The notes below the pieces were generated by a model. That model searched no databases, was not told the origin of the DNA, and was given only the letters and a program-made list of their open reading frames with translations. From Trinickia symbiotica (GTDB taxonomy: Bacteria > Pseudomonadota > Gammaproteobacteria > Burkholderiales > Burkholderiaceae): a stretch of DNA of 64,000 bases. Made by a program: the position numbers and the translations under genes. The DNA is taken from positions 62,001 through 126,000 of the forward strand of contig NZ_PTIR01000008.1 in the NCBI RefSeq assembly GCF_002934455.1. The letters are read 5' to 3'. Below, one piece after another: positions 6,402 through 54,345 of the stretch. Position 1 is the first letter of the stretch. Every line of letters begins with the position of its first letter.

Positions 6402-9400
6402 ATGGTTTCCTGGGCAAACGAGCGGTTGATGCGCGGTGTCGAGCGATTTGGCTCGGTGCCCACCTTTATGACGGCCGGTTCCGGTCGTCGCTTCGCGGCG
6501 CGATGGCATCGCGTGGAGACTGTAGTGCGCGCGAGAATCGATCTAATTCAGCGTTTGCTCGACCAATACTATGGGGGTGGGCTGGCATTGGCCGCGCTGC
6601 TGCTCGGTCTTGCCGCGACGTTGACAGTTTATTCGCTGCTTGGCGGATTCGTCGAGCGTGAGGCGCGGCTTCGTTTCGAAAACGATTCGCGAAACGTCGA
6701 GCAGCAGATCGCGACACGTGTTCGACTGTATTCGGACGTGCTCGTGACGATGCGTGCATTGATGAGCGCCGATGAGGAAGTGAAAAGAAGCGAATTCCGC
6801 GACTTCGTGTCCGGGCTCGATTTGCCGGGCCGATATCCGGGCTTTCAGACGCTCAATTGCGCGTTCTATCTGCGCGATACCGATCTTGACGCATTTGTCG
6901 CGCGGCAGCGTATCGATCCGGCGCTGCGAAGCGCGGGAGTCGAATTTACCTTGCATCCGCGCGCTCAGCGCGCGATGCACGAAATACTGACTTACGTCGA
7001 GCCGCTCGAACGTAACACGGCGTCGCTCGGGGTCGATCTCGATGCGTTGCCGGACCGCGGCAACGCTTTACAAACATTGCGCGATACCGGTGAAGCCGTC
7101 AGCAGCGGTCGATTGATCTACGCCGAGCGCGGCGCCGAGTACGTCGGTCTCGCGATGCGTCTGCCCGTCTATCGCAGAGGGATGCCGACGGCAACGGTGG
7201 ACGAGCGTCGCCGCGCCTATGTCGGGTCGGTCGGTGCCGGCATCAGAGTGAACGACATGATGGCTGGGCTCTTGAGTGCCCAGACGTTACTCGCGCTCAG
7301 ATACCGCATCTACGACGCAGGGAGCGTCTACGGCCGCCAGTTCGCACCTTCGGATTCCCGGATGCTCTACGACAGCATCGGCGGAGTATCGGTAAGCTCT
7401 GCTGCCGCGGCGAGCGGAGGCGTCAAACCCCTCGATTCCGATAGGCGCAACGGCAATGGCGGGCGGCATGCAGTCGTTCCCGGTGCATCGACGAGCCCGC
7501 CGTTCACACGCAGCACGACGCAGCAATTCGCGGGGCGGCGCTGGGTTATCGTATTTTCAGCGCAGCCTGCGGCGTTGATGGGCTCTCAGCGCTATCTGCC
7601 GAACGTCGCCCTGCTATCCGGGCTGGTCATTAGTCTGCTGTTGGCGAGTCTCGCGTATGCGCTGTCCACCTCGCGATCGCGGGCGCTGAAAGTGGCCGAT
7701 GATATGACGGCCGGTTTCCGGGAAAGCGAAAGGGCGCGAGCCGAAGCGCAACGGATCGCGCATTTGGGAGACTGGCGCGTCAATGTAGGCAACGGCGCCG
7801 CGCACGTTTCCAACGAGATGGCGCGCCTCGTCGGCCTGAGACGAGGGTCACCCACCGTGAAGATGCTGGCGCGGGCCATCGAATGCGCCGATCGCCCCGC
7901 GCTACTGAGTCATCTCAAGCGGACACTCGAGACGCGAGAGCCGTTCGAGCTCGAATGCCGCTACCGCTCGTTACGCGGCAGGCGCGGATGGCTGCGCATC
8001 ATCGGTCATGCGTGCGGTGAGCCAGGCAGCGGTTGGCTGCGCGGCACCGCGCTCGAGGTGACGAAGCAGAAATCGATCGACCGTGCCCGCGAGCTGGAGC
8101 ATGCGTTCACGCTTCAACTCGCCACCGCCACGAACGACACGGATATATTCGCCGGGCTCGTCACGCTATTGACGAGCGGCATGAATTGGGACGCGGGCGG
8201 GTTCTGGCCGGCCCAGGCGGGCCATCAGCAGTTGCTTCGTCCCGTGTACTCGACATCCGTCGCCGCGCTCGAACAGCGCCTGCGCGCGCAGAGCCTCAAG
8301 CCGCCGATCGACGACGCGCCCATCGCTCCGCGCTGGTCCACCTCACGTGCCGCTTCGCCGCGGCTTCCCGCGTCCGGAATTGTCACGACGTTCTCGTTTG
8401 CGCTGCATACGGGCAAGGAACTGCTCGGCGTGGCGGAGTTCTATTCGCGCGAACGGCGCCACGTCGAGCCTCAGGCGCTTGCGATGGCAAGCTCCATCGC
8501 AAGCCAGATGAGCCATTTCCTGCAACGCCGCATGGCCGAAAGCAATCTGCAATTTCTCGCCAACCACGACGCGCTCACGGGATTGCCGAACAGGCTGATG
8601 TTCAAGTCGCACCTCGAGGATTCACTGTCGCGCGCGCATGCGGAAAAGACGGCGCTTCACGTGCTCTTTATCGACCTCGACCGCTTCAAGGACATCAACG
8701 ACTCGCTAGGTCACAACATCGGCGATCAGATGCTGCGCGCCGTCGCCGAACGCCTCGGCGAGCGCGTGCCGGAAGCCAATATGATCGCGCGCCTCGGCGG
8801 CGACGAATTCATCGTGCTCCTCGAGGACCGTGGCGATGGCGCGGCGAACTTGCGGAAGACCATCGACGTCATTCAGGCCGCACTGTCGGACCCGTTCTCC
8901 GTATGCGGGATGCAGTTGCGGGCGAGTGCAAGCATCGGCGTGAGTTCGTTTCCGGAGGATGGCAGCGATGCGCAGACGCTGCTGAAGAACGCCGATCTCG
9001 CGATGTACGGCGCGAAACAGCGAGGCAAGAACACGTTTCAGATGTACGTGCGCCAAATGAGCATGTCGCTGCAGCAGCGCGTCGAAATGGAGTCGTGTCT
9101 GCGGCAGGCTGTCGAGAACCACGAGTTCACGCTGTTCTATCAGCCACGCGTCGATTTGCGCACGAATCACTGCACCGGCGCAGAAGCGCTCATTCGCTGG
9201 AACAGTCCGAAGCTGGGGCTCGTTATGCCGGCCGATTTCATTCCGCTCGCCGAAGAGACCGGAGACATTGTATCGATCGGCGCATGGGTGCTGCGCGAGG
9301 CGTGCCGCCAGGCGGCGGAATGGCGAGCGGGCGGCCTCGGCGACATTCACGTGGCCGTCAATCTTTCGGCCCGCCAGTTCGCCGATACGCGCCTGCGCGA

Positions 9401-9923
9401 GACCATTCTCGAAGCGCTCGAAGACGCGCGGCTGCCGGGCCACGTGCTCGAGCTCGAGCTGACCGAGAGCGTGATCATGCGCCAGCCCGAGCAGGCGGTC
9501 CACTTGCTCTCCGCGATCAAGAAGACGGGCGTGCGCCTTTCGATCGACGACTTCGGCACCGGTTACTCGTCGCTCGCGTACTTGAACCGATTCCCGATCG
9601 ACATCGTGAAGATCGATCGCTCGTTCATCCGGCATCTGCCCGAAAGCCATAGCGATGCACAGATCACGAGCGCCGTCATCGCACTGGGACACAGCCTCGG
9701 GCTGACGGTCATTGCCGAAGGCGCCGAAACGCAGTCGCATATCGACTTCCTTCGCAAGGAGGGGTGCGACGAAGTACAGGGGTATTTTTTCAGCCGCCCC
9801 TTATCCGCCGGCGATATGAGGATCTTCCTCGATCGACCGGTTCAACCGGGGCGCGGCGCCGCGTCGCTGCCCCATTGCACGGACGTGCGGAGCTTGGGCT
9901 CCGGGCGTTCGATTCATAGCTGA
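6402..9923 (+). CDS. CHASE-PAS-GAF-GGDEF-EAL c-di-GMP turnover protein
   Basis: An 1173-residue inner-membrane sensor. Order: TM1 at ~60-83, periplasmic CHASE domain ~100-320, TM2 ~400-425, PAS ~445-550, GAF-like ~570-710, GGDEF ~735-890, EAL ~905-1155. The diguanylate cyclase loop is intact (GGDEF 799-803), and the phosphodiesterase core is also present (EALIRW at 928, ELTESVIM, DDFGTGYSSL, EGAET). The RxxD inhibitory site expected before GGDEF is absent (sequence there is VPEANMIARL), so product inhibition by that site is unlikely. Which activity dominates cannot be told. The 285 bp upstream is AT-rich and probably holds its promoter. The repeat-protein gene starts 14 bp downstream, so the two are likely co-transcribed. 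Codons 10 and 23 are possible later starts. Confidence 0.93.
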   Translation: MVSWANERLMRGVERFGSVPTFMTAGSGRRFAARWHRVETVVRARIDLIQRLLDQYYGGGLALAALLLGLAATLTVYSLLGGFVEREARLRFENDSRNVEQQIATRVRLYSDVLVTMRALMSADEEVKRSEFRDFVSGLDLPGRYPGFQTLNCAFYLRDTDLDAFVARQRIDPALRSAGVEFTLHPRAQRAMHEILTYVEPLERNTASLGVDLDALPDRGNALQTLRDTGEAVSSGRLIYAERGAEYVGLAMRLPVYRRGMPTATVDERRRAYVGSVGAGIRVNDMMAGLLSAQTLLALRYRIYDAGSVYGRQFAPSDSRMLYDSIGGVSVSSAAAASGGVKPLDSDRRNGNGGRHAVVPGASTSPPFTRSTTQQFAGRRWVIVFSAQPAALMGSQRYLPNVALLSGLVISLLLASLAYALSTSRSRALKVADDMTAGFRESERARAEAQRIAHLGDWRVNVGNGAAHVSNEMARLVGLRRGSPTVKMLARAIECADRPALLSHLKRTLETREPFELECRYRSLRGRRGWLRIIGHACGEPGSGWLRGTALEVTKQKSIDRARELEHAFTLQLATATNDTDIFAGLVTLLTSGMNWDAGGFWPAQAGHQQLLRPVYSTSVAALEQRLRAQSLKPPIDDAPIAPRWSTSRAASPRLPASGIVTTFSFALHTGKELLGVAEFYSRERRHVEPQALAMASSIASQMSHFLQRRMAESNLQFLANHDALTGLPNRLMFKSHLEDSLSRAHAEKTALHVLFIDLDRFKDINDSLGHNIGDQMLRAVAERLGERVPEANMIARLGGDEFIVLLEDRGDGAANLRKTIDVIQAALSDPFSVCGMQLRASASIGVSSFPEDGSDAQTLLKNADLAMYGAKQRGKNTFQMYVRQMSMSLQQRVEMESCLRQAVENHEFTLFYQPRVDLRTNHCTGAEALIRWNSPKLGLVMPADFIPLAEETGDIVSIGAWVLREACRQAAEWRAGGLGDIHVAVNLSARQFADTRLRETILEALEDARLPGHVLELELTESVIMRQPEQAVHLLSAIKKTGVRLSIDDFGTGYSSLAYLNRFPIDIVKIDRSFIRHLPESHSDAQITSAVIALGHSLGLTVIAEGAETQSHIDFLRKEGCDEVQGYFFSRPLSAGDMRIFLDRPVQPGRGAASLPHCTDVRSLGSGRSIHS

Positions 9924-9937
9924 GACGGAGACGGACC

Positions 9938-10828
9938 ATGCAGGAAAGAAAAAACGACACAGCGGCCATGTGGAGTGCCATCGAGGAACTGGACTTCGAG
10001 AGGATCAAATCGAAGCTGCTCCACAAGCATCGTGGGGCGGTGACGGAGCACGACGTCGCGCGTGCCGAGGCGGGATATCGGCAGTTTTTGAAGATCATCG
10101 CCAAATATCCCGACGCGCCGGTCGTTCCGAGCGAGGCCGTCGACGAATTCTGGCATATGCATATCCTCGATACACAGCGCTATGGCGCCGATTGTGAGCG
10201 GATCTTCGGCTATATGGTGCATCACGACCCGTATATCGGGATCGACGGGCCGCAAGACGAAGCGCGTCTTGCCGATGCGGCGCGCAGCAGCCATGCGCTT
10301 TTCATGCGTGAATTCGGTACGGCCGCCGAGGCGCCCGCGTATTGCATTCGATCCGCGGAAGGCGCGATGGCCGCCTATTGCATTCGCGCCGGGGAGAACG
10401 GCGCGTCGGCGGCGTATTGCATCAGGCAAGCGGCGGATGCGTCGTCGGCGGCGTATTGCATCAGGCAAACGGCGGATGTGCAGTCGGCGGCATATTGCAT
10501 TCGACAAACGGCGGATACGTCGTCGGCGGCGTATTGCATCAAGCAAGCGGCGGATGGGTCCTCGGCGGCGTATTGCATCAAGCAAGCGGCGGATGCTTCC
10601 TCGGCGGCATATTGCATCAAGCAAGCGGTGGATGTGTCGTCGGCGGCGTATTGCATCAGGCAAACCGCGGATATGTCGGCAGCGGCCTATTGCATCAAGC
10701 AGACGACGGATATGTCCTCAGCCGCATATTGCATCAGGCAAGCGGTTGAGCCATCGGGAGCGGCGGCCTACTGCATTCGTTCCGGGCAGCCCGTGCCGGC
10801 GTCCGCCGCGTATTGCATTCGAGCCTAA
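9938..10828 (+). CDS. GRDP-like domain protein with 13 AYCI(R/K) repeats
   Basis: A 296-residue protein of two parts. Residues ~1-125 resemble the bacterial version of the glycine-rich domain-containing protein (GRDP, formerly DUF1399) N-terminal domain: DEFWHMHILDTQRY (W72-H73-x-H75) and later H95-H96, possibly metal-binding. Residues ~133-296 are almost wholly tandem repeats, with 13 copies of AYCI followed by R or K; the central eight units (158-261) are exactly 13 residues, consensus AAYCI(R/K)QxADxSS. The only Cys outside the array is C86. No signal peptide or TM segment is seen. GGAG lies 7 bp before the ATG, and the gene sits 14 bp after the GGDEF-EAL gene. Its stop overlaps the convergent receiver gene's stop. 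It could be a metal- or thiol-binding protein, an assembly scaffold, or a multi-core modified-peptide precursor; no maturase is adjacent. I do not know its function. Confidence 0.8.
   Translation: MQERKNDTAAMWSAIEELDFERIKSKLLHKHRGAVTEHDVARAEAGYRQFLKIIAKYPDAPVVPSEAVDEFWHMHILDTQRYGADCERIFGYMVHHDPYIGIDGPQDEARLADAARSSHALFMREFGTAAEAPAYCIRSAEGAMAAYCIRAGENGASAAYCIRQAADASSAAYCIRQTADVQSAAYCIRQTADTSSAAYCIKQAADGSSAAYCIKQAADASSAAYCIKQAVDVSSAAYCIRQTADMSAAAYCIKQTTDMSSAAYCIRQAVEPSGAAAYCIRSGQPVPASAAYCIRA
10409..10720 (+). repeat. 39-bp coding tandem array, eight exact-length units
   Basis: Eight consecutive 39-bp units encode the 13-residue repeats 3 to 10 of the AYCI protein; irregular units flank them (10334-10408 and 10721-10825). 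The codon core GCN-GC-N-TAT-TGC-AT(C/T) is nearly invariant, whereas the linker third (codons 8-13) varies in both synonymous and nonsynonymous positions. Near-identity of adjacent units points to expansion by slippage or unequal recombination, with selection holding Tyr, Cys, Ile and the basic residue. Confidence 0.93.
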
Positions 10829-11235
10829 CCGGCCGCTCCTTCGTGCTTTTCGCGCGCAAGGCGGGCGATCGTCTCCATCGCGAGATCGAATTCGGTTGTT
10901 TTATCGAAGAAATAATCGGCGCCCGCCGAGAAGCTCGCCTTGCGGAACACAGGGGTCGCGTAATTCGTGAGCACGATGGTGACAATCGAATCGGTCCGGT
11001 CGCGCAGCGCATGGAGCAGATCGATGCCGTGGCAATCCGTGAGCCGCAAGTCGACGATGACGACCTCAGGTCCGCTGGCCTCGATGCCACGCAGTGCCGT
11101 TTCGACGTCTTCCGCTTCGCCCACGACGAGCGCCTCGCCGGCCGGCGGTTCGATGCGGGCGGCAAGGCGCTTGCGGACGAGCGTCGAATCCTCGACGACG
11201 AAAACCCTCAGGAGGGACGAGATGGGTGAATTCAT
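10825..11235 (-). CDS. single-domain response regulator (receiver only)
   Basis: A 136-residue stand-alone receiver. The acidic pocket is in VFVVEDS, the phospho-acceptor Asp in VVIVDLRLTDCHG, the conserved Thr in VLTNYA and the Lys in FFDKTTEF. No output domain follows. It resembles the receiver at 15723-16127 and lies in the same orientation as the NarL/kinase pair upstream, so it may accept phosphate from that kinase; this is inference. Start ATG 11235 leaves a 156-bp leader that contains TGTAGG motifs. Its stop overlaps the stop of the Cys-repeat gene on the other strand. Confidence 0.88.
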   Translation of the reverse strand: MNSPISSLLRVFVVEDSTLVRKRLAARIEPPAGEALVVGEAEDVETALRGIEASGPEVVIVDLRLTDCHGIDLLHALRDRTDSIVTIVLTNYATPVFRKASFSAGADYFFDKTTEFDLAMETIARLAREKHEGAAG

Positions 11236-11291
11236 GCGCTGAGTATCGTCACCGCCCGGCTTCATGAATATCGGACCGCACACGAAGATTG

Positions 11292-11331
11292 TGTAGGCGT
11301 TGGGGAAACGCCTTGTAGGGCGTTTCCTACA
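11292..11331. promoter_or_regulatory. TGTAGG motifs with perfect dyad, putative regulator site
   Basis: TGTAGGGCGTTTCCTACA (11314-11331) is a dyad of TGTAGG and CCTACA with a 6-bp spacer, and another TGTAGG lies at 11292. GGAAACGCC/GGCGTTTCC (11304-11327) can also fold as a hairpin but has no T tract. The dyad is ~80-95 bp upstream of the receiver gene start on the minus strand and shares TGTAGGAAACG with 14259-14269. A NarL-type binding site is plausible; a weak transcription stop after the NarL gene is the alternative. Confidence 0.45.
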
Positions 11332-11391
11332 GCCCGCAAAAGCTCGGCTCCGGGCGGTCTTGGCCTGGACAAGTGACGCACCGCTTCCGAT

Positions 11392-12042
11392 CTAAACCTG
11401 CTCGCCGTCGTCGAAGAGCTTATGCTGGATCGCGTAGCGGACCAGCGCCGCCTCGTGCGGCATCTGCATTTTCTCGAGAATCCGCGTTTTGTATGTACTT
11501 ACCGTTTTGGCGCTCACGCAGAGCTCGTTCGCAATTTCGGTAATCGTCTGGCCGGAGGCGATGCGCCGGAACACTTCGAACTCGCGATCGGACAACCGCT
11601 GATGCGGCGCCATATCGGTCGGCTCATTGAGGCTTTGAGCAAGCCGCTCGGCCATCGACAGGCTGACGTACACGCCGCCGGCCGCGACTTTCGTTACGGC
11701 GGAGACGAGCTCCGTGCTCGCGCTTTCCTTGGTCAGATATCCCGATGCCCCCGCTTTGAACGCGCGCACCGCATATTGCTGTTCGGCGTGCATCGTGAGG
11801 ACGAGAATCCGTAATGTGGGGATCTCGTCCTTGATCTGCTTGAGGAGCTCGACGCCGTTGCGCGGTCCCGGCATCGAAAGATCGAGCACGAGCACGTCCG
11901 CCGGCGTGCCTCGCACGAGCGCGACCGTGCTCGGTCCGTCGTGGGCTTCCCCGGCGACCTCGAAGCCGCTCGTGCCTTGCAGAATGTGCCGCAGACCATC
12001 GCGCACGAGCGTGTGGTCGTCAGCCAATAGCACTTTGGTCAT
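11392..12042 (-). CDS. NarL/FixJ-type response regulator
   Basis: A 216-residue DNA-binding response regulator. An N-terminal receiver (LLADDHTLVRDGL; phospho-Asp in VLVLDLSMPGP; Lys in GYLTKESA) is followed by a LuxR-type helix-turn-helix (LSDREFEVFRRIASGQTITEIANELCVSAKTVSTYK). Its start overlaps the stop of the histidine-kinase gene by 4 bp (ATGA), so the two are translationally coupled and form a cognate pair. GDGEQ-like acidic residues end the protein. Candidate targets are promoters carrying the TGTAGG motif found in this region. Confidence 0.95.
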   Translation of the reverse strand: MTKVLLADDHTLVRDGLRHILQGTSGFEVAGEAHDGPSTVALVRGTPADVLVLDLSMPGPRNGVELLKQIKDEIPTLRILVLTMHAEQQYAVRAFKAGASGYLTKESASTELVSAVTKVAAGGVYVSLSMAERLAQSLNEPTDMAPHQRLSDREFEVFRRIASGQTITEIANELCVSAKTVSTYKTRILEKMQMPHEAALVRYAIQHKLFDDGEQV

Positions 12043-14186
12043 GGCAAGGCCTCTTCCTGTTGTATTGCCGCAAGCGGCAGCATGACGGTGAGGATGAAAC
12101 CGCGATCGGCGGCCGTTTCGATCGATACCGTGCCGCCCAATAAGTGAACCCGTTCCCGAATGCCAAGGAGTCCGAACGAATTCCCCGCGCGTCCTTCGAC
12201 TTCCTCCGTCGTTGCGCCGCGCCCGTCGTCCGCCACCCGCAATAAGCATCGGCCGCTTTCGACGGCAAGGGCGACGCTGACATGCTTGGCTTCCGCATGC
12301 AGCGCGACATTGGTCAGCGCCTCCTGCACGATGCGGAAGAGCGCCGTGGCGCCCTCGCGCGAAAAGTCGAAGGCGGCCGGCTCGATCCGGCGTTCGACTT
12401 CGATACCGTAGCGAGTCGTGAAATCGTTGATCAACCATTCAATCGCAGGGCGCAGTCCGAGATCGTCGAGCATGACCGGCCGCAAATCGGCGGCAATGCG
12501 ACGGGCAGACGCGACCGTGGAATCGATGAGCCGGCGCATGCTCTGCAGCTGAGCGAGAGCGGATGGTGCGACGCCGGGCGTGCCCTCGAGCGTTTGCTGC
12601 GCCGAAGAGAGATCCATTTTCAACGCGGTGAGCTGTTGCCCGAGATCGTCGTGCAGCTCCCGGGCGATGCGCGTCTTTTCGTCCTCGCGGACGGTTTGCA
12701 GGTTCGCCGAAAGCTTGCGTAGCGCCTCGCGCGATCGCTTGAGCTCGTTTTCGGCTTCAATGCGCGCCGTCGCATCGTGCAGCATGACCGTATAGAATTT
12801 GCGCCCCTCGCCATCGGCGAACTGCGTGATCGACGCCTCGATGGGAAACTCCTCGCCGTCGGCGCGCAAGCCGGTCAAAACACGGTGCGGGCCCATTCGT
12901 CGATCGCCTGCCGCCGTCGCTCCGAATTGCTCGATATGCGCTTTGTGCGCTTCACGAAAGCGCTCGGGGATGAAGCGCTCGATCGGCCCGCCGATCGCCT
13001 CCGTCGCCGCGCAGCGGAAAAGCTGTTCGGCCATCGGATTGAAGAGAACGATTCGCTGCGCCTCGTCGATGGTGATGATGGCTTCCGGCGACGACCGGAC
13101 GATGGCCATGAGCCGCGCTTCGTTCGGCGTCGAGCTCGAGCGCCTCGCGCGCGCGCCGGCGTCAGAGAACGGCGCGACGCGGCGGCGCCCGAACAGCAAT
13201 ACCCCGGCGCCCGCCGCGAGCGCCGCGGCACAACCCGACCCGGCGAATGCGTTTGTGCCGAACTCGGCGGCCGCGGTCAGCGACGGGTCGCGCGTCGCAT
13301 AAGTGAGCGCGAACGTCTCGCCGCCGAATCGCAACACGTCGGTGCGGCGAAAAAAAGCTGTCGGCAGCGGCAAGTTGGCGGGCGTCTCCGCGGGTGGATA
13401 GAGAACCCGCGACGGCGAGCCTGCCACGACTTCCAAGCCCGTGCGCGGCGTGCGCGCGGCCACGCTCGCGAAAAGGTACTCGGTATCGAGCCGCGCGACG
13501 ATGAAGCCGGCCAGCGAGGCGCGCCGCTCGGCTGGCTGCGAGGGAGGCGGCGCGTCGCGATAGACGGGGAAGAATGCGTCGACGCGGGGGCGCGGGACGT
13601 CGGACGACGACTCTTCATCGTGCGCCGGGCGCATGGCCAGCGCGATCTGCGCGGTATTGGCCGCGCGCAGCAGCGCATTGCGCGTTTCGGGATCCGTGCC
13701 GATGCCGTCCGCGCCGGCGCTGGCGTGCAGCGGCCAGAGGAGCGAGAGGCGCGCGATCGGCGTTTCTGGCGGGGCGGCGAACGCATCGCCCGACGCCTGG
13801 GCGAAGCCGAGTGTGCGCAGGCACGGCTGTGCGTCCTCGAGCGCGAGCCGGGCGATGTAGCGATCCCAGGCATCGGCCGAAGGAGGAGCGCCCGCAGGTG
13901 ATTGTTGCGACGCAATGAAGCCACTCGCGCCGCGCATCGCTTCGGTGCAAATGACGAGCTCCCGCCGCAGGTCGGCCGTGACGTGCGCGGACAGCGTCAC
14001 GAAGCGTTCCTGCGCCGCATCGAGCAGGCGCGCACGAACGAGCGAAGCGGCAACGGCGGTGATGACGAGGACGACCGCGGCGGTCGCGAGCGCAGCGAGC
14101 CACGCGCCACGATAGGCGGACATGCCCTCCCGAGCGCGGCCGGGCGGCGGTGCGGCGGGCGACGGCGAAGAACCGGCAGCAAGCAT
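12039..14186 (-). CDS. CHASE-PAS sensor histidine kinase (HisKA_3)
   Basis: A 715-residue membrane kinase. TM1 lies at ~28-50 (LAALATAAVVLVITAVAASL), a CHASE-like periplasmic domain at ~60-310, TM2 at ~318-335, PAS at ~355-475, the HisKA_3 dimerisation segment with phospho-acceptor H512 (ARELHDDLGQQLTAL), and a NarX-type ATPase domain (IVQEALTNVALHAEAKHV; DDGRG; FGLLGIRERV). This architecture pairs with NarL-type regulators, and one overlaps its 3' end. Two starts are plausible (14186 and ATG 14123, MSAYRGAWL); the shorter form would drop a Pro-rich leader. A TGTAGGAAACG motif lies upstream at 14259. The signal is unknown. Confidence 0.93.
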   Translation of the reverse strand: MLAAGSSPSPAAPPPGRAREGMSAYRGAWLAALATAAVVLVITAVAASLVRARLLDAAQERFVTLSAHVTADLRRELVICTEAMRGASGFIASQQSPAGAPPSADAWDRYIARLALEDAQPCLRTLGFAQASGDAFAAPPETPIARLSLLWPLHASAGADGIGTDPETRNALLRAANTAQIALAMRPAHDEESSSDVPRPRVDAFFPVYRDAPPPSQPAERRASLAGFIVARLDTEYLFASVAARTPRTGLEVVAGSPSRVLYPPAETPANLPLPTAFFRRTDVLRFGGETFALTYATRDPSLTAAAEFGTNAFAGSGCAAALAAGAGVLLFGRRRVAPFSDAGARARRSSSTPNEARLMAIVRSSPEAIITIDEAQRIVLFNPMAEQLFRCAATEAIGGPIERFIPERFREAHKAHIEQFGATAAGDRRMGPHRVLTGLRADGEEFPIEASITQFADGEGRKFYTVMLHDATARIEAENELKRSREALRKLSANLQTVREDEKTRIARELHDDLGQQLTALKMDLSSAQQTLEGTPGVAPSALAQLQSMRRLIDSTVASARRIAADLRPVMLDDLGLRPAIEWLINDFTTRYGIEVERRIEPAAFDFSREGATALFRIVQEALTNVALHAEAKHVSVALAVESGRCLLRVADDGRGATTEEVEGRAGNSFGLLGIRERVHLLGGTVSIETAADRGFILTVMLPLAAIQQEEALP

Positions 14187-14258
14187 GCGATCGGGCGTAG
14201 CGCGAATGGGTCTCGGCGGTACGCCGCGACGGCTTCGACGAAATCGGGAGCCGGCGCT

Positions 14259-14270
14259 TGTAGGAAACGA
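14259..14270. promoter_or_regulatory. TGTAGGAAACG motif upstream of kinase operon
   Basis: TGTAGGAAACG at 14259-14269 matches 11 consecutive bases of the reverse complement of the dyad at 11314-11331. It lies 73 bp upstream of the longest kinase start, in the 216-bp gap between the kinase gene and the decarboxylase gene. The position suggests autoregulation by the NarL-type protein; not tested. Confidence 0.4.
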
Positions 14271-14402
14271 TTGCCGGCCGCATCGGATCAGATTGTGCGC
14301 GATCTACGCAGCAATTGCCAATGATCTATGGATTGTGGCGGAGAACGGCGGGGCCGCGGCCTTCCCGGTTCGCTGTACCCACGAAACGGCTCTCGCGGCG
14401 CG

Positions 14403-53823: not shown

Positions 53824-54345
53824 TCAGTGGGGCAAGTCGTCGCCGAGCGGCGTGTCGCCGAGCGGCGTGTCGCCGAGCGGCGCTCCCGCTTCATCGCCGC
53901 CTCTGGTTTGCGCTGCGCCACGCCAGTACGGCGCGCTGCCGTAATAGTCGTGGAGTTCGTTCGCCCATGCCACGTCAGCCATCGCCGGCCAGTGATTCTT
54001 ATCGAACCCCGGTGCGTTTTTGACCGTGTCGGACGTCACCCCGAGCTGGAAGCATTTGCGATCGGTGTCGAGCGTCAGCGCGTTCCACGGGATGGCGAGC
54101 AGTTTGTCGCCGATACCGAGGAAACCGCCTACAGACATGACTGCATATGCGATGCGTCCGGTGTAGACGTCGAGCATGATCTCCTTGATCTTGCCGACCT
54201 CATTGCCGTCCGAGCACATGACCTTGTCGCCCTCGAGGGTGCTGGCCGCCATCACATACGGCCCCGGGCCTTCGGCGCCCGCGCTGCCTTTGCCAACGAT
54301 ACGCGTCTCGCCTTTACTGCCGATCGGATCGGGTGTCGTGCTCAT
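53824..54345 (-). CDS. PRC-barrel domain protein, C-terminal PLGDT repeats
   Basis: A 173-residue paralogue of the protein at 48235-48768 with the same PRC-barrel (LEGDKVMCSDGNEVGKIKEIMLD; RIAYAVMSVGGFLGIGDKLLAIPW) and the APGFDKNHWPAMADVAWANELHDYYG block. Its tail contains PLGDTPLGDTPLGDD, encoded by three near-identical 15-bp units at ~53838-53882, a likely slippage tract. AGGAG precedes the ATG. It probably arose by duplication followed by insertion of the intervening genes. Confidence 0.88.
   Translation of the reverse strand: MSTTPDPIGSKGETRIVGKGSAGAEGPGPYVMAASTLEGDKVMCSDGNEVGKIKEIMLDVYTGRIAYAVMSVGGFLGIGDKLLAIPWNALTLDTDRKCFQLGVTSDTVKNAPGFDKNHWPAMADVAWANELHDYYGSAPYWRGAAQTRGGDEAGAPLGDTPLGDTPLGDDLPH

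Follow-up and report, generated by a model that had tools for sequence, protein, structure and literature searches.

The window analyzed here, a stretch of 64,000 nucleotides from Trinickia symbiotica (Burkholderiaceae; RefSeq assembly GCF_002934455.1, contig NZ_PTIR01000008.1, positions 62,001 to 126,000), contains a gene pair composed of a membrane sensor with CHASE, GGDEF and EAL domains and, 14 bp downstream, a gene whose product joins an N-terminal GRDP-like domain to a C-terminal array of 13 A-Y-C-I-(R/K) units (Table 1). An earlier note, made from the sequence alone, had already placed the array gene 14 bp after a GGDEF-EAL gene, to which we add that the upstream gene also encodes a CHASE domain: the sensor scores 117.2 bits for CHASE (cut-off 25), 161.6 bits for GGDEF and 244.5 bits for EAL, and between the CHASE and GGDEF-EAL parts there are matches to PAS_3 and GAF_2 below cut-off. 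Comparison with related loci identifies the CHASE domain as the constant partner of the array, and we tentatively propose that the two form a sender-receiver unit.

Table 1. Features of the array locus and adjoining genes; positions are counted from the first nucleotide of the window.
Feature	Position	Strand	Basis
CHASE-GGDEF-EAL membrane sensor, 1173 aa, conserved partner	6402..9923	+	Pfam, locus and genome comparison
CHASE domain of sensor, residues 126-307	6777..7322	+	Pfam PF03924, clade SH-aLRT 99
GRDP-domain / A-Y-C-I array protein, 296 aa	9938..10828	+	Open reading frame, homolog comparison
GRDP-like domain, N-terminal, residues 1-127	9938..10318	+	Alignment, AlphaFold2, profile comparison
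Array, residues 134-296: 13 A-Y-C-I-(R/K) units, spacers variable	10337..10825	+	Sequence, Tandem Repeats Finder
Single-domain response regulator, membership in unit putative at most	10825..11283	-	Pfam Response_reg
LuxR-type response regulator, membership in unit putative at most	11392..12039	-	Pfam Response_reg and GerE
Second CHASE-PAS-HisKA_3 histidine kinase	12039..14186	-	Pfam CHASE 36.9 bits, HisKA_3 58

The array is unmistakable at the protein level. Alanine (two residues ahead of the cysteine), tyrosine, cysteine and isoleucine are each retained in 13/13 units, with cysteines at residues 136, 148, 161, 174, 187, 200, 213, 226, 239, 252, 265, 279 and 293. The earlier reading of 13 units with a constant core and drifting spacers thus holds: it is evident in the sequence, the tail holds 13 matches to the pattern YC[IVA], whereas 20,000 shuffles gave 0.41 on average and never more than 4, and Tandem Repeats Finder independently recovered a 39-bp array. 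The period of 13 residues given at that time describes a regular repeat but is not strict, as successive cysteines lie 12 residues apart once, 13 nine times and 14 twice. Because alanine codons (GCG/GCC/GCA 7:3:3) and isoleucine codons (ATT/ATC 5:8) differ synonymously while the core residues stay identical, codon usage suggests that the protein sequence of the array has been maintained and is not just the result of recent copying; tyrosine (TAT/TAC 12:1) and cysteine (TGC 13) codons hardly vary. No second copy of the array gene was found within the Trinickia genome. Elsewhere in the window, at 53839-53882, there is a 15-bp perfect tandem repeat of 2.9 copies.

The N-terminal domain is conserved as the earlier note had supposed from W72-H73-x-H75 and H95-H96: W72-H73-x-H75-I-x-D-T and H95-H96 are invariant in an 11-row alignment. 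Among its relatives, four of ten scanned pass the cut-off of the Pfam GRDP-like model PF07173 (25.0, 23.9, 23.4 and 28.0 bits), whereas the array protein itself scores 16.0 bits against a cut-off of 22.7. This is one of its three Pfam matches, all below threshold, such that no curated family is matched above cut-off; the other two, IF-2 and Omega-toxin, were judged to be chance, as were sequence matches in the PDB to a lysostaphin entry (on array residues 163-257, E value 0.0045) and to IF-2 (E value 0.029). NCBIfam gave no match, and the open-access literature searched yielded no account of GRDP/DUF1399 array proteins in bacteria.

To place the pair in a wider setting, the GRDP-like domain alone was searched across 299 Burkholderiaceae genomes, yielding matches in 68 and strong matches in 25, from which 26 homologs were examined (one genome has two copies). 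All 26 carry A-Y-C arrays, with 2-16 tail cysteines each. The residue preceding the cysteine is tyrosine in 208 of the 211 tail cysteines and the one before that alanine in 199/211, the residue after it is alanine, valine or isoleucine in 210/211, and the spacers drift; a single A-Y-S unit occurs within one array (L019). Upstream on the same strand of every array (26/26) lies a CHASE-GGDEF-EAL gene, whole or partial, the frame being interrupted in two draft genomes (in two pieces in G295, shortened in G123); the GGDEF motif is retained in 26/26 sensors and the EAL and DDFG motifs in 25/26. The other flanks vary between genera, and no neighbor besides the sensor, within what was annotated, is common to the 26 loci. 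An ortholog of the CHASE segment is present in 25/25 array genomes (each best match at E≤3.2e-63) and in none of 20 hand-picked array-less genomes (i.e., those with no strong domain match in this search or, for the family below, none in its own search), which have only paralogs at E≥3e-19; eight of these 20 have no domain match and 12 have weak matches to other GRDP kinds. The same pairing occurs on plasmids of Cupriavidus pinatubonensis (A-Y-C-A units) and Variovorax sp. (A-W-C-S units), where the sensors have CHASE, GGDEF and EAL all above cut-off. The domain-only search that the earlier note had recommended has returned what it hoped for: arrays that differ in unit number recur C-terminal to the domain, with a constant sensor as neighbor.

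In a second family of the same order (f5), where the domain is present in 40 of 145 genomes, both the core and the output of the partner differ. Arrays at 29 f5 loci comprise 16 with A-[YFW]-Cys cores, 12 with A-[YFW]-Ser cores and no tail cysteine (including L148, whose contig ends within the array such that a single unit is visible) and one mixed array. A quick tree of the domain implies at least 12 changes among tyrosine, phenylalanine and tryptophan and at least two between cysteine and serine, with the Ser-type rows falling in a clade that also contains three Cys-type rows. Because the Ser-type rows share one clade, nine alignment columns that differ between Ser-type and Cys-type domains are attributed to kinship, and a functional reading of them was dropped. 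The earlier note had named homologs without Cys repeats as the finding that would speak against its reading; these exist in part, as Ser-type arrays and as stand-alone GRDP proteins. Among 21 f5 loci from 20 genomes, drawn from the better-scoring matches, a CHASE-HisKA_3 histidine kinase adjoins the array in 20 (16 upstream in the same orientation, four divergent; absent at L160), and Pfam CHASE is above cut-off in 18/18 scanned of these 20 array-linked kinases. A kinase likewise precedes the domain gene on two Azospirillum plasmids, in keeping with the pairing. Other neighbors recurring at the 21 loci include, as judged by eye, genes for a glutaminyl-tRNA synthetase and a DnaJ-like protein, among others, none of them maturase-like.

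A tree of 89 CHASE domains, quickly built and with several long branches, recovers a single clade (Shimodaira-Hasegawa-like approximate likelihood ratio test, SH-aLRT, 99) that contains all 48 array-linked CHASE domains (26 from GGDEF-EAL sensors, 20 from HisKA_3 kinases, and those of Cupriavidus and Variovorax) together with seven unlinked ones from array-bearing f5 genomes. The 34 others, i.e., 21 paralogs (the second CHASE kinase of the window included) and 13 domains from array-less f5 genomes, fall outside. In the portion examined, the unlinked members are attached to HisKA in six cases and GGDEF in one, and no GRDP gene lies within their flanks of about 1.5 kb per side. Because the unlinked rows were selected by high score in array genomes (the tree omits an eighth place of this kind, G927:C14), only the absence of this CHASE type from array-less genomes is informative for them: at E≤1e-40, and with linked kinases counted, it occurs in 11/11 array-bearing and 0/18 array-less f5 genomes, the latter hand-picked and with no domain match among the matches listed. 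As array-linked CHASE domains form one clade across different output modules, genome comparison places the array with the CHASE input domain and not with the cyclic di-GMP (c-di-GMP) output. The earlier note had suggested c-di-GMP control; c-di-GMP as the point of the pair was abandoned once kinase-linked loci were found, the CHASE input being what both families share. Since unlinked members of the clade occur in array-bearing f5 genomes, additional putative receptors are present in trans.

The genes that follow the unit in the window run on the opposite strand. Regulators in the sequence cluster of the single-domain response regulator are found at 11 of 29 compared loci. The second CHASE kinase and the LuxR-type regulator lie just downstream of the unit, and their sequence clusters are each present in 11 loci; because the CHASE domain of this kinase, itself a long branch, falls outside the array-linked clade, the kinase is left out of the unit.

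AlphaFold2 models the GRDP-like domain as six helices with a predicted local distance difference test score (pLDDT) of 86.8. Foldseek against the PDB returned no match to this model at E≤0.001, and VIA-align returned none at Z≥5, its best rows being phycobiliproteins (Z 4.6 over 90-95 residues at 3.1-3.8 Å), a likeness that may reflect only a common helical arrangement; a missing PDB match does not establish a new fold. The tail is modeled at a pLDDT of about 30-46 with roughly one strand per unit. This strand pattern raises the alternative, which we consider improbable, that the array folds into a beta-solenoid in which every unit supplies one strand, its small residues facing inward and its aromatics outward; exchange between cysteine and serine would be easy in such a tight interior, and the EGKCG repeats of another family have been modeled as a beta-helix (PMC12452194). 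Spacing within single arrays is highly variable, however, ranging from 11 to 32 residues in L023 and from 10 to 23 in L068 and being irregular in L124, and some arrays number just two to four units, so that a flexible string would describe the tail better than a solenoid.

Beyond the two families, 398 genomes of the phylum were searched with a profile, of which 29 gave GRDP-domain matches, and 23 of 27 resolved GRDP proteins (28 loci) have at least two cysteines in their last 60 residues, one of the 23 being an array protein. In Halomonas and Pseudomonas savastanoi, a short peptide ending in GGGHCQGGG[GS]W is followed by a stand-alone domain protein and then by a membrane protein, which in Halomonas is MatE-like below cut-off; the peptides share a near-identical C-terminus and differ in their N-termini (L073:6752-8733 on a Halomonas plasmid; L114:4524-6616 and L076:6712-8700 on P. 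savastanoi plasmids). On a Stanieria plasmid (L077:6956-8479), a GRDP-like gene, a 43-aa peptide with two A/G-F-C-F-L motifs and a methyltransferase gene follow in order; the peptide, which has no relative in the plasmid collection at E≤1, may represent the core motif in split form. Other relatives, ending in short Cys tails, adjoin genes for methyltransferases, TauD-like dioxygenases and UvrA-like proteins in varied combinations (L040, L046, L047, L074, L111, L121; roles assigned from record annotation and Pfam for L074, from Pfam for the pentapeptide repeats of L111, and otherwise by eye). Loci of the L074 type (6983-14375, on an Azospirillum ramasamyi plasmid) have the look of peptide clusters not yet described, with an ATPase that might confer self-resistance; L047 also has a radical SAM-like gene and L111 a pentapeptide-repeat protein. 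Elsewhere the domain is fused to a radical SAM-like protein with a CxxxCxxC motif, as judged by eye (L029 / L048, G254), and two large viral contigs (245 and 390 kb) encode GRDP-like proteins with Gly/Ser/Cys-rich tails (L173:5995-6624, L175:6001-6792). These wider contexts suggest a partnership of the GRDP-like domain with Cys peptides, whether in the same chain or encoded separately, although the biosynthetic roles are assigned by resemblance.

CHASE domains are found in many orphan receptors of bacteria, and the CHASE kinase DhkA recognizes the peptide SDF-2 (PMC1863423), providing a precedent for a peptide-responsive CHASE domain. Since the output changes and the CHASE type does not, the array can be placed at the sensor's input; it is probably not a thiol store, because serine can stand in for cysteine; and a multi-copy peptide precursor is consistent with a short core that recurs while its spacers drift and its key residue changes. 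These considerations, together with the DhkA precedent, lead us to favor, as a possibility held with some reserve, a sender-receiver unit in which a multi-copy peptide precursor yields a product that is sensed by CHASE receptors. The GRDP-like domain would then serve as a leader-like and perhaps self-acting carrier, and the tail as a multi-copy string of the short core A-[Y/F/W]-[C/S]-small. Cores would be excised, perhaps altered at their cysteine or serine, and exit the cytoplasm, and the sensor encoded alongside would perceive them through its dedicated CHASE domain, with an output of c-di-GMP in Trinickia and of phosphorelays in its relatives. What the sequences establish is the array and its conservation, the constant CHASE partner, the single CHASE clade across output modules and the changes of the core residues, whereas the flexibility of the tail, its processing, any modification, its export and the role of CHASE as receptor are inferred. 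With CHASE, of one clade across output types, the linked sensors do possess the extracytoplasmic ligand domain expected of a dedicated receptor in the membrane, and the array product is presumed to bind it.

Several observations weigh against this proposal. The array protein looks cytosolic, with no export signal evident by eye (no predictor was applied), whereas CHASE domains are extracytoplasmic, and neither an exporter nor a protease is evident among the conserved neighbors, as far as annotated, of the Burkholderiaceae and f5 loci; a route for export and processing may be encoded elsewhere in the genome. At the f5 locus L160, whose array consists of three S-Y-C-G units, the stretch examined contains no CHASE gene; this is the second GRDP array locus of genome G968 (9601-10203, counted on the - strand). 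On two Azospirillum plasmids (L071:5869-6696 and L117:5788-6480), a divergent GRDP-like domain carries A-D-C-L-R repeats of about 9-10 residues that lack the aromatic residue, downstream of kinases (89% identical to each other; HAMP-HisKA-HATPase-REC as scanned in L071) whose sensory part is CHASE8-like just below cut-off. MNIO enzymes (PF05114) occur in 20/25 array and 7/20 array-less Burkholderiaceae genomes and SPASM proteins (PF13186) in 20/25 and 12/20, i.e., each is missing in 5/25 array genomes, and G170 lacks both. The co-occurrence counts are phylogenetically non-independent, the array-less genomes were hand-picked and the trees are quick ones; and the strand modeled per unit, although of very low confidence, leaves room for a folded tail. 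As a separate observation, a 923-aa membrane sensor-like protein of a different kind is encoded near L160 on the opposite strand.

The main rival is that the array is never processed and acts as a cytosolic adaptor or scaffold, its multivalent linear motifs binding a partner or the inner membrane face and tuning the sensor, with the Cys/Ser and aromatic side chains as docking residues. The apparent cytosolic location, the absence of an evident conserved exporter or maturase, the low-confidence tail model and the presence of a short motif that is conserved while spacers and unit number vary would all suit an adaptor. We nevertheless consider it rather unlikely: the element that accompanies the array, CHASE, is extracytoplasmic, the 620-aa kinases have no further Pfam sensory domain in common with the GGDEF-EAL sensors, and some arrays have only two or three units.

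Less probable again is a product resembling ribosomally synthesized and post-translationally modified peptides (RiPPs) that is no signal for the linked sensor, such as a metal ligand, antimicrobial or pigment made by the GRDP-like domain in cis or by another enzyme, with the sensor merely controlling it. Distant GRDP proteins with Cys tails do occur in RiPP-like clusters, the fusion to a radical SAM-like protein points in the same direction, TIGR04222-type proteins, whose N-terminal region matches the GRDP-like domain, are among proposed MNIO substrates (PMC12452194), and Cys/Ser interchange would suit chemistry on either side chain. The array proteins resemble multi-core RiPP precursors in having a conserved leader-like part followed by repeated cores, but no modifying enzyme is evident nearby, as far as neighbors were annotated, the enzymes typical of such clusters do not recur beside arrays, and neither an MNIO nor a SPASM protein is shared by all 25 array genomes. 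Within the sensitivity of the PF05114 and PF13186 models, neither enzyme therefore appears to be obligatory; the survey for maturases acting in trans covered these two classes. A multi-core precursor with enzymes encoded elsewhere, as entertained in the earlier note, is a live possibility, but not one that would seem to depend on MNIO or SPASM.

A metal or thiol reservoir akin to metallothioneins or copper-storage proteins, which the earlier note had raised as a sponge on the strength of 13 evenly spaced cysteines and which the 208/211 Burkholderiaceae tail cysteines following tyrosine in the same motif might also support, is very improbable, and as a family-wide function it is refuted, because cysteine is not the conserved functional residue: 12/29 f5 arrays have Ser cores and no tail cysteine behind the same kind of domain and, where examined, beside the same kind of partner, and L019 has its A-Y-S unit.

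An array beside one CHASE subtype regardless of output provides a concrete ligand candidate for that subtype, which turns the question of what these receptors perceive into a testable one. If the sender-receiver proposal is correct, the bacterial GRDP-like domain would gain a role with Cys/Ser peptides, and a group of peptide clusters not yet mined would come into view. It is a more ambitious and doubtful claim that the unit represents a new form of bacterial signaling, in which a polyprotein with many copies of the core, processed or modified by its own N-terminal domain without a separate maturase, is read by a dedicated CHASE subtype with exchangeable output (c-di-GMP enzyme or kinase), and switching of the aromatic residue and of Cys/Ser sets strain specificity.

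Known systems resemble the unit in single aspects. Subsets of the TIGR04222 (near_uncomplex) membrane proteins were proposed as MNIO substrates in 2025 (PMC12452194). In a set of six aligned relatives, one of them such a protein (L092), the N-terminal region matches the GRDP-like domain (99.3%, E value 2.9e-20), with a homologous WHxH...HH domain and a low-complexity, mostly Cys-rich C-terminus; the TIGR04222 domain, however, lies elsewhere in the chain and is absent from the array protein and nine other scanned relatives. The array protein has instead a regular A-aromatic-C/S tail, no constant MNIO companion and a CHASE sensor partner. The Buf_EGKCG/oxazolin precursors likewise have variable numbers of short Cys repeats in a long precursor, but according to PMC12452194 they have Sec signals, mostly MNIO and partner genes, and an EGKCG motif. 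In pairing, core and Cys/Ser exchange, the array unit matches none of the systems compared. In the fused burpitides, plant BURP-domain cyclases carry their core peptides in the same chain, and the likeness is one of concept: a domain that catalyzes or carries is joined to cores in multiple copies. Catalysis by the GRDP-like domain is hypothetical. Proteusins, with their domain-sized leaders, also place a folded leader-like domain ahead of the core region, but maturation enzymes do not recur at array loci. Multi-copy peptide pheromone precursors and the peptide/kinase quorum systems of Gram-positive bacteria share with the unit a repeated short peptide, or a peptide paired with a membrane receptor of variable specificity; these come with export signals, or else with exporters and proteases of their own, whereas neither conserved neighbors nor inspection of the sequence by eye revealed these for the arrays. 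The DhkA/SDF-2 system of Dictyostelium differs in being eukaryotic and, to our knowledge, in that its peptide and receptor genes are not an adjacent pair. The likeness is that of a CHASE histidine kinase recognizing a small peptide (PMC1863423).

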